A stretch of 40,516 nucleotides of DNA from Flavobacteriaceae bacterium. GTDB lineage: Bacteria > Bacteroidota > Bacteroidia > Flavobacteriales > Flavobacteriaceae. Within the stretch, counting starts at the first letter, position 1. Every line of letters starts with the position of its first letter. A program made the translations under genes and the position numbers. The DNA is taken from the NCBI GenBank assembly GCA_024644725.1, contig JAHEHE010000017.1, forward strand, positions 1 to 40,516. Direction: 5' to 3'. The notes under the pieces are model-generated. The model was not told the DNA's origin. It searched no databases and worked only from the letters and a program-made list of their open reading frames with translations. Positions 2,910 through 8,504 of the stretch are shown piece after piece.

Positions 2910-4529
2910 ATGTATAAACCCCTCATATACGTCGCGGTGATTTTTCTTCTGGCCGGATGCCAGGAAGAAACAGTAGCCGACCTCATTGTAACAAACGCCA
3001 AAATCATAACCGTCGATGATTCTTTTTCATCTGCGGATGCCTTTGCTGTAGCGGATGGCAAGTTCCTCGCCGTAGGTTCAAAAAAGGAAATCATGTCTCA
3101 GTTTCGATCTCAGAACAAGATAGATGCCGACGGAAAAACCATTGTACCAGGCCTGATTGATGGTCATTGCCATTTTTACAACTTGGGCATTTTCATGCAA
3201 AAGGTGGACTTGGCTGGAACGGAGAGCTACCAGGAAGTCCTGGATCGTGTCGTTATGTTCCAAAAAGAACAGAAGTCAGACTTTATTATTGGTCGGGGCT
3301 GGGATCAAAACGATTGGGACAGCAAAGAGTATCCAACCCGCAAAGATCTGGATCGTCTCTATCCGAAGACTCCTGTGGCCCTTACCCGGATTGACGGACA
3401 CGCCATGCTGGCCAACAAAGCAGCTCTTGACCTGGCAGGAATTGATTCGAATACCCAGGTTGAAGGAGGCGAAATCATTGTTGAAAATGGAAAAGCGACC
3501 GGGGTTCTTGTCGACAATGCCATGAACCTGGTGGAGGCTGTTATTCCAGCTCCCGACCGGGACACCAAGATCAAGAGCCTGCTCGACGCACAAGAGAAAT
3601 GTTTTTTACTGGGGCTGACCTCTGTGAGCGATGCCGGACTGAGCCGCGAGATCATTGAGCTCATCGACAGCCTCCAAAAAGCTGAGTCCTTGAAAATACG
3701 GGTATATGCCATGATCTCTGTTTCCAAAGAAAACCTGGATCACTACCTTGAGGCCGGAACCTATAAGACCGACAGACTCAATGTCTCTTCGTTCAAGGTA
3801 TACGCCGACGGGGCACTGGGCTCGCGCGGAGCGGTTCTGAAAGAACCTTATTCTGACCGGGAGAATCATTTTGGAGCGATGGTAACGCCTTTGGACACAA
3901 TGAGTCTGATCGCCCGCCGACTGTCTCAATCGAAATTTCAAATGAATACACATGCCATCGGCGACTCCGCAAATGCTTTTGTGCTGAAGACCTATGCCAA
4001 AAACCTGAAAAGCCAGACCAATCGTCGCTGGAGGATCGAGCACGCCCAGGTGGTATCCCCGGATGACTTCCTTTATTTTACGGAAATACTTCCATCCATC
4101 CAACCCACGCATGCCACAAGTGACATGTATTGGGCCGAGGACCGACTGGGTTCCGAACGAATCAAAGGAGCTTACGCTTTCAAGGAATTACTCGACATCA
4201 ACGGAAGGGTTATTCTCGGGACTGATTTCCCTGTTGAAAAAGTTGATCCCATGCTCACTTTTTACGCATCTGTGGCCCGCCAGGACCTCAGTGGCTTACC
4301 GGAGGGAGGATTTCAGATGCAAAACGGCTTGAGCCGGGAAGAAACCCTAAAGGGAATGACGATCTGGGCCGCTTATGGTAATTTCGAAGAGGAGGAGAAA
4401 GGGTCGATTGAGCCGGGCAAATTCGCTGACTTTGTAATTCTTGACAAGAATATCATGGAGATCGATATCGATGAGGTGCCTAAGACCAAAGTCCTTGGAA
4501 CCTATGTGAATGGCGAAAAAGTATACTAG
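2910..4529 (+). CDS. Amidohydrolase family lipoprotein (YtcJ-like, Amidohydro_3)
   Basis: Predicted metal-dependent hydrolase of 539 residues; the substrate cannot be told from sequence. Residues 1-17 form a lipoprotein signal ending LLAGC, so Cys17 is probably lipidated and the enzyme faces the periplasm. A small N-terminal beta region (ADLIVTNAKIITVD) leads into the metal site HxH in GLIDGHCHFY (His86, His88). Later come FKVYADGALGSRGAVL, NTHAIGDSAN, RWRIEHAQVV and ILGTDFPVE, the usual metal and catalytic segments of the YtcJ group. The C-terminus (GSIEPGKFADFVILD) is typical of amidohydrolases. A weak -7-like element TATATTTA lies at 2873-2880. Its stop overlaps the stop of the convergent DUF2911 gene. 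Alternative: an N-acyl-amino-acid deacylase-like enzyme. Confidence 0.9.
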   Translation: MYKPLIYVAVIFLLAGCQEETVADLIVTNAKIITVDDSFSSADAFAVADGKFLAVGSKKEIMSQFRSQNKIDADGKTIVPGLIDGHCHFYNLGIFMQKVDLAGTESYQEVLDRVVMFQKEQKSDFIIGRGWDQNDWDSKEYPTRKDLDRLYPKTPVALTRIDGHAMLANKAALDLAGIDSNTQVEGGEIIVENGKATGVLVDNAMNLVEAVIPAPDRDTKIKSLLDAQEKCFLLGLTSVSDAGLSREIIELIDSLQKAESLKIRVYAMISVSKENLDHYLEAGTYKTDRLNVSSFKVYADGALGSRGAVLKEPYSDRENHFGAMVTPLDTMSLIARRLSQSKFQMNTHAIGDSANAFVLKTYAKNLKSQTNRRWRIEHAQVVSPDDFLYFTEILPSIQPTHATSDMYWAEDRLGSERIKGAYAFKELLDINGRVILGTDFPVEKVDPMLTFYASVARQDLSGLPEGGFQMQNGLSREETLKGMTIWAAYGNFEEEEKGSIEPGKFADFVILDKNIMEIDIDEVPKTKVLGTYVNGEKVY

Positions 4530-5074
4530 ATATCGAAACGAATCGGTGCGGTCACCCGGGCCGTGTCCCATCCCAGGACCATATTGATGTGTTTGCCCTT
4601 TTCTTTGAAGGCTATTGAGAACGCCTCGATAAATTCGGCACGACTCACTTTGGCCTGAACCCTCGCCACATCGTATTTATCATCGTATTCGTAGGTACCC
4701 CAAACATCCGTCTTTGAGCTGAGGATCAGGGTCCATTCTTTTTCGTTGGGAATGGCGTAAAGAACATAAGTCCCTGCCTTTACTTCAGTTCCTCCAAAGA
4801 GCACGTCCTTGTAAAACACGACTTCGGTCGCCTCATTGGCACCCACTCTCCAGATCTGACCGTAGGGAATCACTTCTTCAAAAAGGTCCCTGCCCTTCTT
4901 CATGGGTCTGCCATAAAGTACTTTTATGCTAGGAGGAGCAATTTTATTGGTCCTGAAATAGACAATGTCATGGGGGCTTTCATCCAGATCCTTGAAATCT
5001 TGAGCTTTAGCGCTCCCAATGGATAGTATCGTCACAAAAGTGAACAAACAGGAAAATAAGAGGGTCTTTTTCAT
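4526..5074 (-). CDS. DUF2911 domain protein, secreted (copy B)
   Basis: About 182 residues from the ATG at 5074, which begins a clear signal peptide (MKKTLLFSCLFTFVTIL, then SIGSAKAQ). An upstream in-frame ATG at 5116 would add 14 charged residues before the signal and is less likely. The mature part has the DUF2911 core: PYGQIWRVGANEATEVVF, then KAGTYVLYAIPNEKEWTLILS, with a C-terminal beta-rich half. The function of the family is unknown; the compact beta fold and signal suggest a periplasmic or surface protein. It lies just downstream of a paralogue in the same direction, so both are probably co-transcribed. Convergent with the amidohydrolase, overlapping by a few bases at the stops. Confidence 0.85.
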   Translation of the reverse strand: MKKTLLFSCLFTFVTILSIGSAKAQDFKDLDESPHDIVYFRTNKIAPPSIKVLYGRPMKKGRDLFEEVIPYGQIWRVGANEATEVVFYKDVLFGGTEVKAGTYVLYAIPNEKEWTLILSSKTDVWGTYEYDDKYDVARVQAKVSRAEFIEAFSIAFKEKGKHINMVLGWDTARVTAPIRFDI

Positions 5075-5118
5075 CGCAATCATCTTTTCAAATTCTCGTT
5101 TCACCTTGGGTTTCAAGG

Positions 5119-5685
5119 TTAGATTTTGGCCAGCATTGGGCTAGTGTCATCCAACGGAATATCCACACGGGTTTCCTCCCACGCCAGAACCATAAAGGCA
5201 TCTTTGAAATCTTTCTTGAAGGCAATGGAGAAAACGTCAAGAGGTTCATTCACGTCCTTCTTCACTTTTATCTTGAAACGGGCCACATCTTTCTCCGGGT
5301 TGTAGAAAAAGGCGCCCCAGGTATTCGTATTGGAATTTAGGATTATGGTCCATTCTTTCTTGCCCGGAATGGTGTGCATTACATAAGTTCCCTGCTTTAC
5401 CAACTTGTTTCCAAACAACATGTCCTTGTAGAAAGTAATTTCGGTGGCCTCGTTGGCTCCGGTTCTCCATATCTCTCCATAGGGAACGAGTTTTCCAAAA
5501 ACCTTTCCTTCTTCAACAGAGGGCCTGCTGTAGACCACTTTGACGAGAGGTTCCGATTGATGGTTCGGTCTTAAATAGGCAATATCCACTGGGGCCTTAT
5601 CCAATTGATCAAACCGTTGGGAAAATGCATTAGATTGGAATAAGAGCGCACACAGGATGGCACAGGTAATAGCAATATTTTTCAT
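5119..5685 (-). CDS. DUF2911 domain protein, secreted (copy A)
   Basis: 188 residues with an N-terminal signal peptide (MKNIAITCAILCALLFQ, then SNAFSQ). The family block PYGEIWRTGANEATEITF and the following KQGTYVMHTIPGKKEWTIIL closely match the neighbouring copy, which points to a tandem duplication followed by divergence; the C-terminal thirds differ more. Function unknown. It is the first gene of a likely two-gene unit, divergent from the response regulator at 5860 across about 170 bases, so the two-component system could regulate it, but I did not find the CTTCAGA direct-repeat box in that gap. Confidence 0.87.
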   Translation of the reverse strand: MKNIAITCAILCALLFQSNAFSQRFDQLDKAPVDIAYLRPNHQSEPLVKVVYSRPSVEEGKVFGKLVPYGEIWRTGANEATEITFYKDMLFGNKLVKQGTYVMHTIPGKKEWTIILNSNTNTWGAFFYNPEKDVARFKIKVKKDVNEPLDVFSIAFKKDFKDAFMVLAWEETRVDIPLDDTSPMLAKI

Positions 5686-5859: not shown

Positions 5860-6534
5860 ATGAAGCTATTGATTGTAGAGGATGAGCTTGAATTGCTGAA
5901 TTCCACTTGTGTATACCTGCAGAAAGAGGATTTTGTCTGCGAACCGGCTTCGAATTTTTTTGAAGCGGAGGACAAATTGCTTTCCTACAATTACGACGTA
6001 GTGATACTCGACATCAACCTTCCGGATGGAAATGGTCTGAATCTGCTCAAATATGTCAAGGAGAAAAGCCCGGAAACGGGGGTTCTTATCGTATCGGCCA
6101 AGGATTCACTCGATGACAAACTCAAGGGCCTCGACCTGGGAGCGGATGACTACATCACCAAGCCTTTTCACCTGGCTGAATTGAATTCCAGGGTCAATTC
6201 TCTTTTGAGAAGAAGAAAGTTCGAAGGGAACAACAATATAATTTTTGAGGAAATCGAGATCGATCCGGTGGCAAAGATCGCCTTGGTGAATGCCAAGCCC
6301 CTGGATCTCACCAAGAAGGAGTACTTTCTTCTATTGTACTTTATCACAAATAAAAACAGAGTACTTACCAAGGAGGCGATCGCTGAGCACCTATGGGGAG
6401 ACAATATAGATATGGTCGACAATTTTGACTTTATCTACACCCACATGAGAAATTTGAGAAAGAAACTCAAAAAAAGCGGAGCCAACGACTATCTGCAGAC
6501 GATTTACGGTCTCGGCTATAAATTTGGAGAATAA
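5860..6534 (+). CDS. OmpR/PhoB-family response regulator
   Basis: Cytoplasmic transcription factor of 224 residues. The receiver domain (1-115) has the acidic pocket VEDE, phospho-acceptor Asp51 in VVILDINLPDGNGL, Ser79 and the conserved Lys101 in DDYITKPFH. The C-terminal winged helix (about 125-224) has the family segments LDLTKKEYFLLLYF, LTKEAIAEHLWG and the end YLQTIYGLGYKF. It is followed after 21 bases by its histidine kinase, a normal two-component operon. OmpR/PhoB-type regulators bind direct repeats at 11-base period just upstream of the promoter; two such boxes lie in the gap downstream of the kinase (7838 and 8122), so those are the most likely local targets (inference). Confidence 0.95.
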   Translation: MKLLIVEDELELLNSTCVYLQKEDFVCEPASNFFEAEDKLLSYNYDVVILDINLPDGNGLNLLKYVKEKSPETGVLIVSAKDSLDDKLKGLDLGADDYITKPFHLAELNSRVNSLLRRRKFEGNNNIIFEEIEIDPVAKIALVNAKPLDLTKKEYFLLLYFITNKNRVLTKEAIAEHLWGDNIDMVDNFDFIYTHMRNLRKKLKKSGANDYLQTIYGLGYKFGE

Positions 6535-6555: not shown

Positions 6556-7803
6556 GTGAAGTTAATAGAGAAAACAAGAAGGAGATACATCCCATACGCC
6601 ATTCTGATCTTTATCATTTCCAGCGTAGTAATCTATTTCACCTTGAAGAGAATCACCACCGCCAAGCAGGATGCAAACCTCAAATGGGACAAGGAGCTCA
6701 TAGCTCAAAAGATAAAATACGATTATCCCCTGCCGATTTTTGAAGTAGATGACTACAAATCGAAAACACCGGTCAAGGACACTCTTTATTTCAAGGATAC
6801 ATTGATCTACCAGGTAGTCAGCGGGGTCGAGAAATACGAATTGTACCGTCAACTTACTTCGGTCGAAAACCTGCAGAACAGAACCTATCGGATAGTCACA
6901 AGAACTTCACTTGTTCGAAACCAGGATTACATTCTGATCATTACCGTCTCTGTTGGGATTGTGGTACTCCTCTTGATGATCACCGTTTATTTTGTCAATA
7001 CACATGTTATGAGGAAGGCCTGGCTGCCTTTCAATAAGAATTTACAGATTGTCAAGAACTTTAGCGTAGAAGACAATAAACCAATCACATTGGAAAAATC
7101 CGGGATCGATGAGTTCGAGGAGCTCAATGACTCCCTCACGCGGCTTACAGACAAGATCGTTTCGGATTTCAACAACCTGAAAGAGTTCACTGAGAATGCT
7201 TCCCACGAGATGCAGACGCCTTTGGCCATCATGCAGTCAAAATCCGAGATGCTGCTGCAATCTGAGAATCTCGATCCTGAACATATTGATCACATCCGAG
7301 CCATCTACACTTCTGTGCAGCGCCTCTCCAAATTGAACAAGACGTTGCTGCTTCTATCAAAAATTGAGAACAACCAGTTCACCGAGAAAGAAACTATCGA
7401 CGTCAACAAGAGCATTGAGAGACAGTTGGAGATCTTTGAAGACTTTATCGAAAACAAAGAACTTGAACTGGTTATGAATACAGCGATGGATGTCACAATT
7501 GAAGCAAATCCATTGCTATTTGACATGGTGATATCAAACCTGATCAGCAATGCGATCAAACACAATGTCAAAGGCGGGAACATTACGATATCCACTACCA
7601 AACTATTCGTCAGTGTATCCAATTCGGGGGCCCCGACCAAATTGGACTCCTCATCCTTGTTTGAACGATTCAAAAAAGAGAGCCAATCGTCGAACTCCTT
7701 CGGGCTCGGATTGGCAATCGTCAAAAAAGTTTGCGACAACTACAACTGGAAGATCACCCACTCTTTTGCTGAAGACCAACACAATATTTCCATTTACTTC
7801 TAG
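6556..7803 (+). CDS. Two-component sensor histidine kinase
   Basis: 415-residue membrane kinase, partner of the regulator before it. It starts at GTG (6556), giving a short basic N-terminus, TM1 at about residues 11-31, a periplasmic sensor of about 90 residues, and TM2 at about 125-147. The dimerisation/phospho-acceptor region is NASHEMQTPLAIMQSKSEML with His217. The ATPase part shows the N-box (NLISNAIKHN), a G1-like VSNSG and the G2 box GLGLAIVKKV. No clear HAMP motif is visible, although the 150-205 linker could be a degenerate one. The sensor domain was not recognised, so the signal is unknown. The stop is only 34 bases before the first CTTCAGA box. Confidence 0.94.
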   Translation: MKLIEKTRRRYIPYAILIFIISSVVIYFTLKRITTAKQDANLKWDKELIAQKIKYDYPLPIFEVDDYKSKTPVKDTLYFKDTLIYQVVSGVEKYELYRQLTSVENLQNRTYRIVTRTSLVRNQDYILIITVSVGIVVLLLMITVYFVNTHVMRKAWLPFNKNLQIVKNFSVEDNKPITLEKSGIDEFEELNDSLTRLTDKIVSDFNNLKEFTENASHEMQTPLAIMQSKSEMLLQSENLDPEHIDHIRAIYTSVQRLSKLNKTLLLLSKIENNQFTEKETIDVNKSIERQLEIFEDFIENKELELVMNTAMDVTIEANPLLFDMVISNLISNAIKHNVKGGNITISTTKLFVSVSNSGAPTKLDSSSLFERFKKESQSSNSFGLGLAIVKKVCDNYNWKITHSFAEDQHNISIYF

Positions 7804-7837: not shown

Positions 7838-7872
7838 CTTCAGAATTTCTTTAGAATGACTCCCTATGTTTG
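7838..7872 (+). promoter_or_regulatory. Activator box plus -7 element of small RNA copy 1
   Basis: Two direct repeats, CTTCAGAAT (7838) and CTTTAGAAT (7849-7857), start 11 bases apart. Seven bases after the second comes TATGTTTG (7865-7872), an exact TAnnTTTG. There is no TTTG at the -33 place, which is taken up by the repeats. This is the geometry expected of a PhoB/OmpR-type activated promoter. The predicted RNA start is near 7879. Confidence 0.6.
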
Positions 7873-7998
7873 CCTTGTAATTGGATGTTGTTACTCATTC
7901 AGTAACTATTTCAGAACGTTCAAAATTCATGCTATGAATACTGAAATAAGCTAAACATCAATTGATTCTCAACGAGAACAGAATATTTTGAGGGGAAT

Positions 7999-8040
7999 AT
8001 GAAGTTTTCGTACAGAATCAGGTATAAATTGAAACATTAA
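7999..8040 (+). CDS. Possible 13-codon leader peptide inside small RNA copy 1
   Basis: ATG at 7999 follows GAGGGG with a spacing of about 4 bases and reads MKFSYRIRYKLKH before TAA. The peptide would be strongly basic. Copy 2 keeps the GAGGGG but its ATG is followed by a stop after three codons, which argues against conserved coding. Recorded as a weak alternative. Confidence 0.15.
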   Translation: MKFSYRIRYKLKH

Positions 8041-8057
8041 GCTGTTTTGATTTGCAA
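8036..8057 (+). repeat. Conserved 22-base segment, copy 1 (see 8300-8321)
   Basis: Starts ATTAAGCTGTTTTG and ends ATTTGCAA; it matches 8300-8321 at 20 of 22 positions. In both places it sits just before the terminator hairpin. Together with TGAGGGGAAT it is the part of the RNA units kept at sequence level. Confidence 0.8.
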
Positions 8058-8061
8058 TAAT

Positions 8062-8096
8062 AAGCCTGTAATTGATTCAATTACAGGCTTTTATTT
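8062..8096 (+). terminator. Rho-independent terminator, small RNA copy 1
   Basis: Perfect 13-base-pair stem AAGCCTGTAATTG (8062-8074) with its complement at 8078-8090, a 3-base loop, then TTATTT. Confidence 0.85.
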
Positions 8097-8121
8097 AAAA
8101 AAATTTCAATTCTGAACAAAA

Positions 8122-8156
8122 CTTCAGATTTTCTTCAGAATTCATACCTATTTTTA
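8122..8156 (+). promoter_or_regulatory. Activator box plus -7-like element of small RNA copy 2
   Basis: CTTCAGATT (8122) and CTTCAGAAT (8133-8141) again start 11 bases apart, and again exactly 7 bases separate the second repeat from a -7-like element, here TATTTTTA (8149-8156, last base off consensus). No TTTG lies at -33. The identical spacing to the copy-1 promoter is the main reason to treat both as regulator-dependent promoters. The predicted RNA start is near 8163. Confidence 0.55.
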
Positions 8157-8299
8157 CAACAGTTTTGATAGTAACGCTCTATTGTTGCTTGATGACTTTC
8201 AAATAAAAGTAAAACTTTAGTAGTTTTTGCTGTAAGAGTAAAATATTGGACTGAGGGGAATGATATTTTAGCTCGACCAGCGTTGCAAATACAACAAAT

Positions 8300-8321
8300 A
8301 TTAAGCTATTTTAATTTGCAA
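8300..8321 (+). repeat. Conserved 22-base segment, copy 2 (see 8036-8057)
   Basis: Starts ATTAAGCTATTTTA and ends ATTTGCAA; it differs from 8036-8057 at two positions, both G to A. Confidence 0.8.
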
Positions 8322-8324
8322 AAT

Positions 8325-8362
8325 AAAAAAAACCTGTTCAACACTTTGGACAGGTTTTTTTT
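8325..8362 (+). terminator. Rho-independent terminator, small RNA copy 2
   Basis: Stem of A-run plus CCTGTTC (8325-8339) paired with GGACAGG plus T-run (8348-8362), 8-base loop AACACTTT. The CCTGT/ACAGG core is shared with the copy-1 terminator. Confidence 0.85.
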
Positions 8363-8496: not shown

Positions 8497-8504
8497 TATA
8501 TTTG
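8497..8504 (+). promoter_or_regulatory. gyrB -7 element
   Basis: TATATTTG, exact TAnnTTTG, 39 bases before the gyrB ATG. No clear -33 TTTG. Confidence 0.6.

Follow-up and report, generated by a model that had tools for sequence, protein, structure and literature searches.

The regulatory RNAs of Flavobacteriaceae have been mapped only sparsely. In the window considered here (a stretch of 40,516 nucleotides, one contig of a marine Flavobacteriaceae genome of 2.83 Mb in 161 contigs, about 90% complete), 740 bases separate the gene for a sensor histidine kinase from gyrB (8544). What occupies this gap, what turns it on, and on what might it act? The reading we think probable is that the gap encodes two sibling trans-acting small RNAs, each switched on by the adjacent OmpR-type response regulator, in the manner of the csRNAs governed by CiaR. 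Comparative sequence argues for the RNA family, its structure, the anatomy of its promoters, and the box they share; we infer transcription, phosphorylation-dependent activation, pairing in trans, and the sign of the effect.

Two tandem units between kinase and gyrB

The gap holds two units in tandem, members of one family of structured RNAs (Table 1). The first-pass annotation had described two tandem, diverged RNA units after the histidine kinase, and all the elements it named were found again in place. Each unit begins with direct repeats (CTTCAGA/CTTTAGA from 7838, CTTCAGA/CTTCAGA from 8122) that form part of a 34-nt repeat family, 79% identical and 284 apart. The G-rich segment TGAGGGGAAT (7989-7998 and 8252-8261) is the same at all ten positions in both units; a 26-nt segment (8032-8057 and 8296-8321) is 88% identical, with a 22-base core that agrees, on reading, at 20 positions; and both terminators contain CCTGT/ACAGG. 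Since gyrB is preceded by a -7-like element of its own, it need not depend on the RNA promoters. At the other end of the locus, two adjacent DUF2911 genes (4526-5685, minus strand) face the gene of the response regulator head to head.

Table 1. Features of the two-component locus and the gap that follows it (positions in the window)
Feature	Position	Strand	Evidence
OmpR/PhoB-type response regulator, presumed activator of both RNA genes	5860..6534	+	Pfam Response_reg 91.2 bits, Trans_reg_C 71.2 bits
Sensor histidine kinase, NCBIfam PorY family	6556..7803	+	NF052314 T9SS_HK_PorY 430.7 bits (cut-off 350), residues 2-415; HisKA, HATPase_c
Regulator box 1 (predicted), TTCAGA-N5-TTTAGA	7839..7855	+	Genome scan with box plus promoter element
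-7 element TATGTTTG, RNA gene 1	7865..7872	+	Fits TAnnTTTG (PMC9723704, in part); box-to-element distance 26
RNA gene 1, predicted transcript	7879..8096	+	Start inferred from -7 element, end from terminator; fold z -7.0 (0/200 shuffles as stable); R1 51.8 bits
RNA 1 hairpin H2, GAGGGGA (7990-7996) at tip	7962..8021	+	Free fold (loop GAGG); fold with heptamer forced open; helix covariation
RNA 1 hairpin H3, loop TTAAGC at 8037-8042	8025..8054	+	Free fold; covariation analysis of fitted alignment
RNA 1 intrinsic terminator	8056..8096 (about)	+	Hairpin -16.5 kcal/mol plus T run
Regulator box 2 (predicted), TTCAGA-N5-TTCAGA	8123..8139	+	Sequence and genome scan
-7 element TATTTTTA, RNA gene 2	8149..8156	+	Unit anatomy script, genome scan
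RNA gene 2, predicted transcript	8163..8362	+	Fold z -4.0 (0/200 shuffles as stable); R1 132.4 bits (one of R1's own 14 sequences)
RNA 2 hairpin H2, GAGGGGA (8253-8259) at tip	8229..8281	+	Free fold; fold with heptamer forced open; covariation
RNA 2 hairpin H3, loop TTAAGC at 8301-8306	8283..8321	+	Consensus of 14 units; absent from RNA 2's own minimum-energy fold
RNA 2 intrinsic terminator	8325..8362	+	Hairpin -16.3 kcal/mol plus T run
Separate -7-like element TATATTTG before gyrB	8497..8504	+	Read from sequence

The kinase scores above the cut-off of the NCBIfam PorY model, PorY being the library's label, so that the link of this kinase to type IX secretion is known here by name only. The response regulator exceeded the cut-off of no NCBIfam model among 25 of the 92 families listed. 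A PglZ protein (PglZ being a domain of PorX) is encoded elsewhere in all seven genomes searched, and the regulator adjacent to the kinase is of the OmpR type. Hfq (PF17209) was found in none of the seven (the window's own genome being about 90% complete), the same search being positive in 5 of 14 control genomes.

No described RNA family had been recognised in the units, and the Rfam search that the first-pass annotation had called for agrees: none of 4227 families gave a match at the gathering threshold, either in the gap or in eight related loci. Within the window Rfam finds two tRNAs, both outside the gap; at E<=10 the best score, 33.8 bits against a threshold of 54, is a terminator look-alike, and the csRNA model RF02379 gave an antisense match only (19.4 bits against 57). 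A search of the literature on Bacteroidetes, flavobacterial, and Lutimonas sRNAs (most subscription journals not covered) found, among the papers listed, neither a description of this RNA nor a paper joining type IX secretion, PorX, and small RNAs.

Conservation of the units among relatives

A collection of species genomes was scanned with the kinase; the best 80 of 336 loci were kept, and the gap was examined in 39 of those 80. Among the best 80, the closest named species by kinase belong to Lutimonas (71% identity), and a metagenome bin reaches 96%. Kinase identity is 57% or more in 22 loci (L009-L029 and L043), and 20 of these carry one to three units between kinase and gyrB; L. halocynthiae (L010) and L. 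saemankumensis (L014) have two apiece. The exceptions, both excluded from the extraction of units, are L012, whose contig ends 122 bases past the kinase, and L029, where the kinase matches only over residues 1-294 and the 1500 bases after the match lack GAGGGGA. Adding the window and L089, of the same genus, to the 20 loci brings the total to 50 units from 22 sources. Units were recognised by the 7-mer GAGGGGA and are alike in the rest of their anatomy; any unit without the 7-mer would be missed. Of the 51 found, 50 were kept, the third GAGGGGA of L009 lying past the start of gyrB.

A unit opens with a 5' part that varies; hairpin H2 follows, tipped by GAGGGGA, then in most units hairpin H3 with the loop UUAAGC, and finally a terminator. 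All but two of the 50 units, which are too short, were aligned, and a covariance model (R1) was made from 14 of the 15 units that come last in their arrays, leaving out that of L023. At E<=1.5e-5, R1 recognised 38 of the 50 units, spread over 20 of the 22 sources. Twenty-four of these matches lie outside the model, units of the first and middle types among them, and all run in the direction of the kinase; the window's first unit is thus detected by a model built from last-type units only. Over 397 genomes of the family, with few candidates scored per genome and filters strict enough that weak members can be missed, 23 genomes had a match at E<=0.001. Only five (G000, G025, G253, G146, and G330) reached 70 bits; the remainder, at about 40-47 bits, may be matches to terminators.

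The first-pass annotation had proposed such a search of related genomes and had named random divergence of the gap as the observation that would refute its reading. The same arrangement was found beside the same kinase, with compensatory changes, and the order of parts, the G-rich segment, the stems, the terminators, and the promoter spacing are all kept.

Structure

In both units the G-rich segment caps a long stem; the arms of this stem vary from one unit to the other and yet remain complementary. The open GAGGGGA loop was imposed, in that the heptamer was forced unpaired in the folds of units and consensus; left free to fold, RNA 1 has a loop of only GAGG, with the next two G's in G-U pairs. 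It had been supposed that the hairpins of the two units are unrelated in sequence. Strictly, this holds for the 5' hairpins. The 22-base segment, proposed at first as a possible site for target pairing or protein binding, makes up most of a hairpin, leaving mainly the UUAAGC loop open: AAACA-UUAAGC-UGUUU in unit 1 and, in the consensus, AAAUA-UUAAGC-UAUUU for unit 2. In the minimum-energy fold of RNA 2, the stretch is paired otherwise and H3 does not form; H3 is formed in the consensus.

Covariation was measured against shuffles that ignore relatedness, and whose counts are not to be taken as probabilities. In a plain MAFFT alignment of the 14 last-type units, 18 of 46 base pairs changed on both sides, compared with 11.6 in the shuffles (0 of 500 as high), and there were 58 cells with two-sided change compared with 23.9; 89.3% of cells were paired, against at most 50.6% when the structure was slid along the alignment. 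H3 had no two-sided change in this alignment. In the alignment of the R1 matches, which is fitted to the structure, 40 of 46 pairs changed on both sides, compared with 23.3 in shuffles (0 of 500).

Within the variable 5' part, the hairpin stretch TTCAAAATTCATGCTATGAA of RNA 1 (7919-7938) is nearly equal to TTCAAAATTCTTGCTATGAA, found in the leader of a DUF4382 mRNA (L168). The 5' part of RNA 1 may derive from that leader.

A box shared with lipoprotein genes

What might turn the units on? At the start of each stands the box TTNAGA-N5-TTYAGA, at a fixed distance before a promoter element that resembles TAnnTTTG, the -7 consensus of flavobacterial sigma-A (PMC9723704, in part). The distance from repeat to promoter was 26 in 38 of the 50 units, as found by script; the other 12 had no such pair or another distance, the window's first unit falling among them only through a wrongly picked repeat (a distance of 26 does fit). 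The extended pattern TTNAGA-N5-TTYAGA-N9-TANNTTTR has four sites in the window's genome and none in the reversed control. Two sites are those of the RNA genes, and the others lie before an OmpA-family gene and a DUF4382 lipoprotein gene (Pfam scores of the products 62.3 bits for OmpA and 112.6 bits for DUF4382). Both of the latter sites recur in relatives. The box scan found none before the response regulator's own gene.

Over 18 distinct genomes (G253 and G397 are one genome, counted once), there are 55 sites against none for the reversed control; the pattern, having been drawn up from the RNA units, is not independent of them. Thirty-five sites belong to the array between kinase and gyrB or, in G330, to a match of R1. 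Of the other 20, 11 stand before genes of OmpA-family-like lipoproteins, 6 before those of DUF4382-like lipoproteins, and 1 before a further lipoprotein-like gene; the last 2 have no visible gene after them. The proteins were grouped by eye from sequence, Pfam being run only on the two from the window's genome. In the distant genome G224, the box again stands before an OmpA-like lipoprotein. After a box of that genome (L332, on C26), no ORF is in view, and a possible hairpin has the C-rich loop TCTCCCC, the opposite, by eye, of the G-rich tips. A Chryseobacterium MAG (L075, about 1147-1267) has the box 105 bases past the related kinase; an ORF that by eye resembles an ECF sigma factor begins 86 bases further on.

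Across the family, the box is sparse: 43 sites in 26 of 299 family genomes, with seven for the reversed control. Nineteen genomes have a single site and seven have at least two. Four of the seven hold the locus (G000, G025, G253, G146), one is of the sister type described below (G119), one is of the distant type (G224), and G144 is the exception. G144 has two nearly identical matches to the box (C7:35035 and C21:2383) and is not among the genomes matched by R1. Multiple boxes appear, then, to accompany this two-component locus, G144 excepted, and would be bound by its regulator. Control by the adjacent response regulator, as first proposed, gains indirect support from the recurrence of the box with the kinase locus, the rarity of two or more boxes elsewhere, and the two further groups of genes that the box marks.

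A proposed mechanism and the search for targets

The mechanism we envisage would begin with a signal, sensed probably at the envelope by the PorY-type kinase. The response regulator would then bind the direct repeat TTNAGA-N5-TTYAGA, which takes the place of the -33 element, and turn on each RNA gene; it would also drive the envelope lipoproteins, that is, the OmpA-family protein and the DUF4382 protein. The RNAs would act in trans, adjusting other mRNAs through the G-rich tip UGAGGGGA, which would serve as seed for C-rich sites of target mRNAs without the help of Hfq. Two or three copies of the RNA might provide dose, or perhaps targets are divided among them.

Sites for such a seed did not stand out. 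The sequence TTCCCCTCA occurs 20 times in the window's genome (two of the sites being the RNA genes themselves) compared with 15 times for its reverse, hence is not enriched, and TCCCCTCA occurs 162 times within 0-25 nt before ATG in 18 genomes, compared with 169 for the reversed pattern. In 80 stretches surrounding sites in 10 genomes, examined together with five further loci, none of the free start regions had a site that recurred in like genes. Twenty-two sites had a frame nearby, four of them free of longer frames (L263, L264, L321, L322), and the proteins of those four are unlike by eye. The one recurrence, the same site in like proteins of two genomes (L254 and L283), lies inside a coding frame. 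Two candidates in the window's own genome are not claimed as targets: a site over the start of what we take to be an exonuclease/phosphatase-like protein (L164) and one 37-38 nt before the gene of a presumed SprE/PorW-like lipoprotein (L158). The outcome of the search lowers confidence in UCCCCUCA as a start-region seed; target sites may be shorter or may lie in coding regions. Separately, two TTTTCCCCTCATTATG sites 16 bases apart stand just before a terminator-like hairpin in the window's genome (G000 C154:4095-4119, L165). They could act as a sponge, or as a 3'-end target, for the G-rich tip.

The sister clade

In 14 loci with kinase identities of 44-51% (L030-L034, L036-L042, L044, and L055), the same gap is filled differently. 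Twelve have small protein genes with signal-like starts between kinase and gyrB, many behind a box; L038 is cut off inside one such gene, and L031 has none. One of two such proteins compared with the Pfam model PepSY_like scored 22.8 bits, below the cut-off of 28.3. Many of the mRNAs end in a conserved module, whose two parts are a hairpin (its loop AUUGGGUUGA) and the terminator GAAACAGCUUAA..UUAAGCUGUUUC. The module also stands free behind a box of its own in L031, L040, and L055; L032, L034, and L039 have free copies of a variant form, and in the free copy of L044 the loop is AAUAGGGUAA. L040, L055, and L336 have a box-driven unit whose sole frame is a 47-residue, remnant-like peptide (the likeness judged by eye). 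The exact 18-base core of the module was found in one of 299 family genomes. Because the module varies little, pair counts are little informative. A model of the sister type made without L044, L032, L034, and L039 found all four: the last three scored 48.1-52.6 bits, L044 scored 35.3 bits (E 1.2e-4), and antisense matches in this search reached up to 27.7 bits. Its support is confined to the sister type.

Place, promoter, and plan would be consistent with common descent of the two RNA types. This can be offered only as a hypothesis, because the covariance models do not cross-detect: on both strands, the sister model R2 reached at most 27.9 bits on the 22 Lutimonas-type sources, and R1 at most 24.4 bits on 13 sister loci. 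By eye, the H3 loop TTAAGC resembles the sister terminators.

A bolder idea, which we hold tentatively and think rather unlikely, is that the gap is a cassette array of the PorY-type sensor, with one box per cassette. Its payload would have been exchanged in evolution between genes of small secreted PepSY-like proteins, whose mRNAs end in the G-loop module, and sRNAs with no frame. The units of L040, L055, and L336 and the free modules would be intermediate steps, and the window's sRNAs would be related to those mRNA ends as descendants, or ancestors, that have no ORF. If true, the window's sRNAs would form the RNA arm of a family of sensors that takes its name from type IX secretion.

Other explanations

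The RNAs might instead work by holding a protein, their G-rich tips serving as multi-copy binding sites with no base pairing at all. RsmY/Z and CsrA provide a case of a protein held by RNA, and CsrA-type titration follows a GGA rule. Several units with an identical G-rich tip in one locus, the constancy of the tip while stems vary, and the failure to find a C-rich target signal would all be understandable on this account. Each RNA has only one G-rich tip, however, and the sister-clade module has a different loop, AUUGGGUUGA, with no GGA. Nor was a candidate protein identified, CsrA not being among the searches run. We judge titration unlikely, while giving it serious weight.

The units might also be cis elements, either a leader or attenuator of gyrB or the read-through 3' end of the kinase mRNA, as their position between the two genes in the same orientation could suggest. 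This is very unlikely, given that each unit has its own box, -7 element, and terminator, that gyrB has its own TATATTTG, and that the number of copies varies from one to three.

Short secreted peptides might be read from the unit promoters, in the fashion of the sister clade, where genes for small proteins with signal-like starts occupy this slot behind the box. In the 50 units, however, the longest closed ATG frame on the sense strand has 35 residues, 15 units have no frame of at least 10 residues, and for no unit peptide did BLASTP (E 0.001) give over three hits in other loci; moreover, the base pairs covary. Peptide genes are accordingly a highly improbable explanation, and the earlier judgement that no ORF accounts for the gap stands, as no reading frame recurs in the units. 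Scarcely credible is a dispersed repeat or mobile element, for which the tandem copies might speak, since the position beside the same kinase is conserved and the genome has no second copy of the gap (apart from inverted arms of the terminators, only short matches at E 0.04 or worse).

Significance and relation to known systems

Two sibling sRNAs acting in trans remain the reading we prefer. The locus would then be a compact, conserved system: a PorY-type sensor, its regulator, a box of low background, and sibling RNAs as its most repeated outputs. The sister clade offers a case for how the ends of mRNAs and free sRNAs may interconvert.

The closest parallel in arrangement may be CiaRH of streptococci, where a repeat bound by CiaR, TTTAAG-N5-TTTAAG, drives several sibling csRNAs, some in tandem, beside other promoters (PMC8186281, in part). 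Common to both are the two-component locus, a pair of hexamers separated by N5, and sibling sRNAs accompanied by other promoters. The window's promoters are built like those of the csRNAs, in that the length of the hexamers and the N5 spacing are identical. The letters differ, however, TTNAGA-N5-TTYAGA in place of TTTAAG-N5-TTTAAG, and so does the phylum. The window RNAs, moreover, adjoin the regulator's own genes, are predicted to be about 200 nt in length, and carry a G-rich tip. Targets have been identified for some csRNAs, whereas for the window RNAs the search for targets was negative.

The kinase recalls PorXY(-SigP) of Porphyromonas gingivalis, as it falls in the NCBIfam PorY family. 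There, however, PorY works with a separately encoded PorX, CheY-like plus PglZ-like (PMC10951265, in part), whereas the window's kinase adjoins an OmpR-type regulator. Rfp18 of Flavobacterium is, like the window RNAs, a structured sRNA of Flavobacteriaceae, and one of its stem-loops has been proposed to contain a pairing region; the portion of the paper at hand states no two-component link (PMC9723704), and the comparison is one of description, not of sequence. GibS of Bacteroides thetaiotaomicron is a trans-acting sRNA from a member of the Bacteroidetes that has no obvious Hfq (PMC7366714, in part), and action in trans is proposed for the window RNAs as well. The locus makes it possible to ask how sRNAs find their targets in these bacteria without Hfq, and whether a G-rich hairpin tip can be the seed. 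GibS pairs through its unstructured 5' part (PMC7366714, in part), whereas the most conserved parts of the window RNAs are the tips of hairpins.
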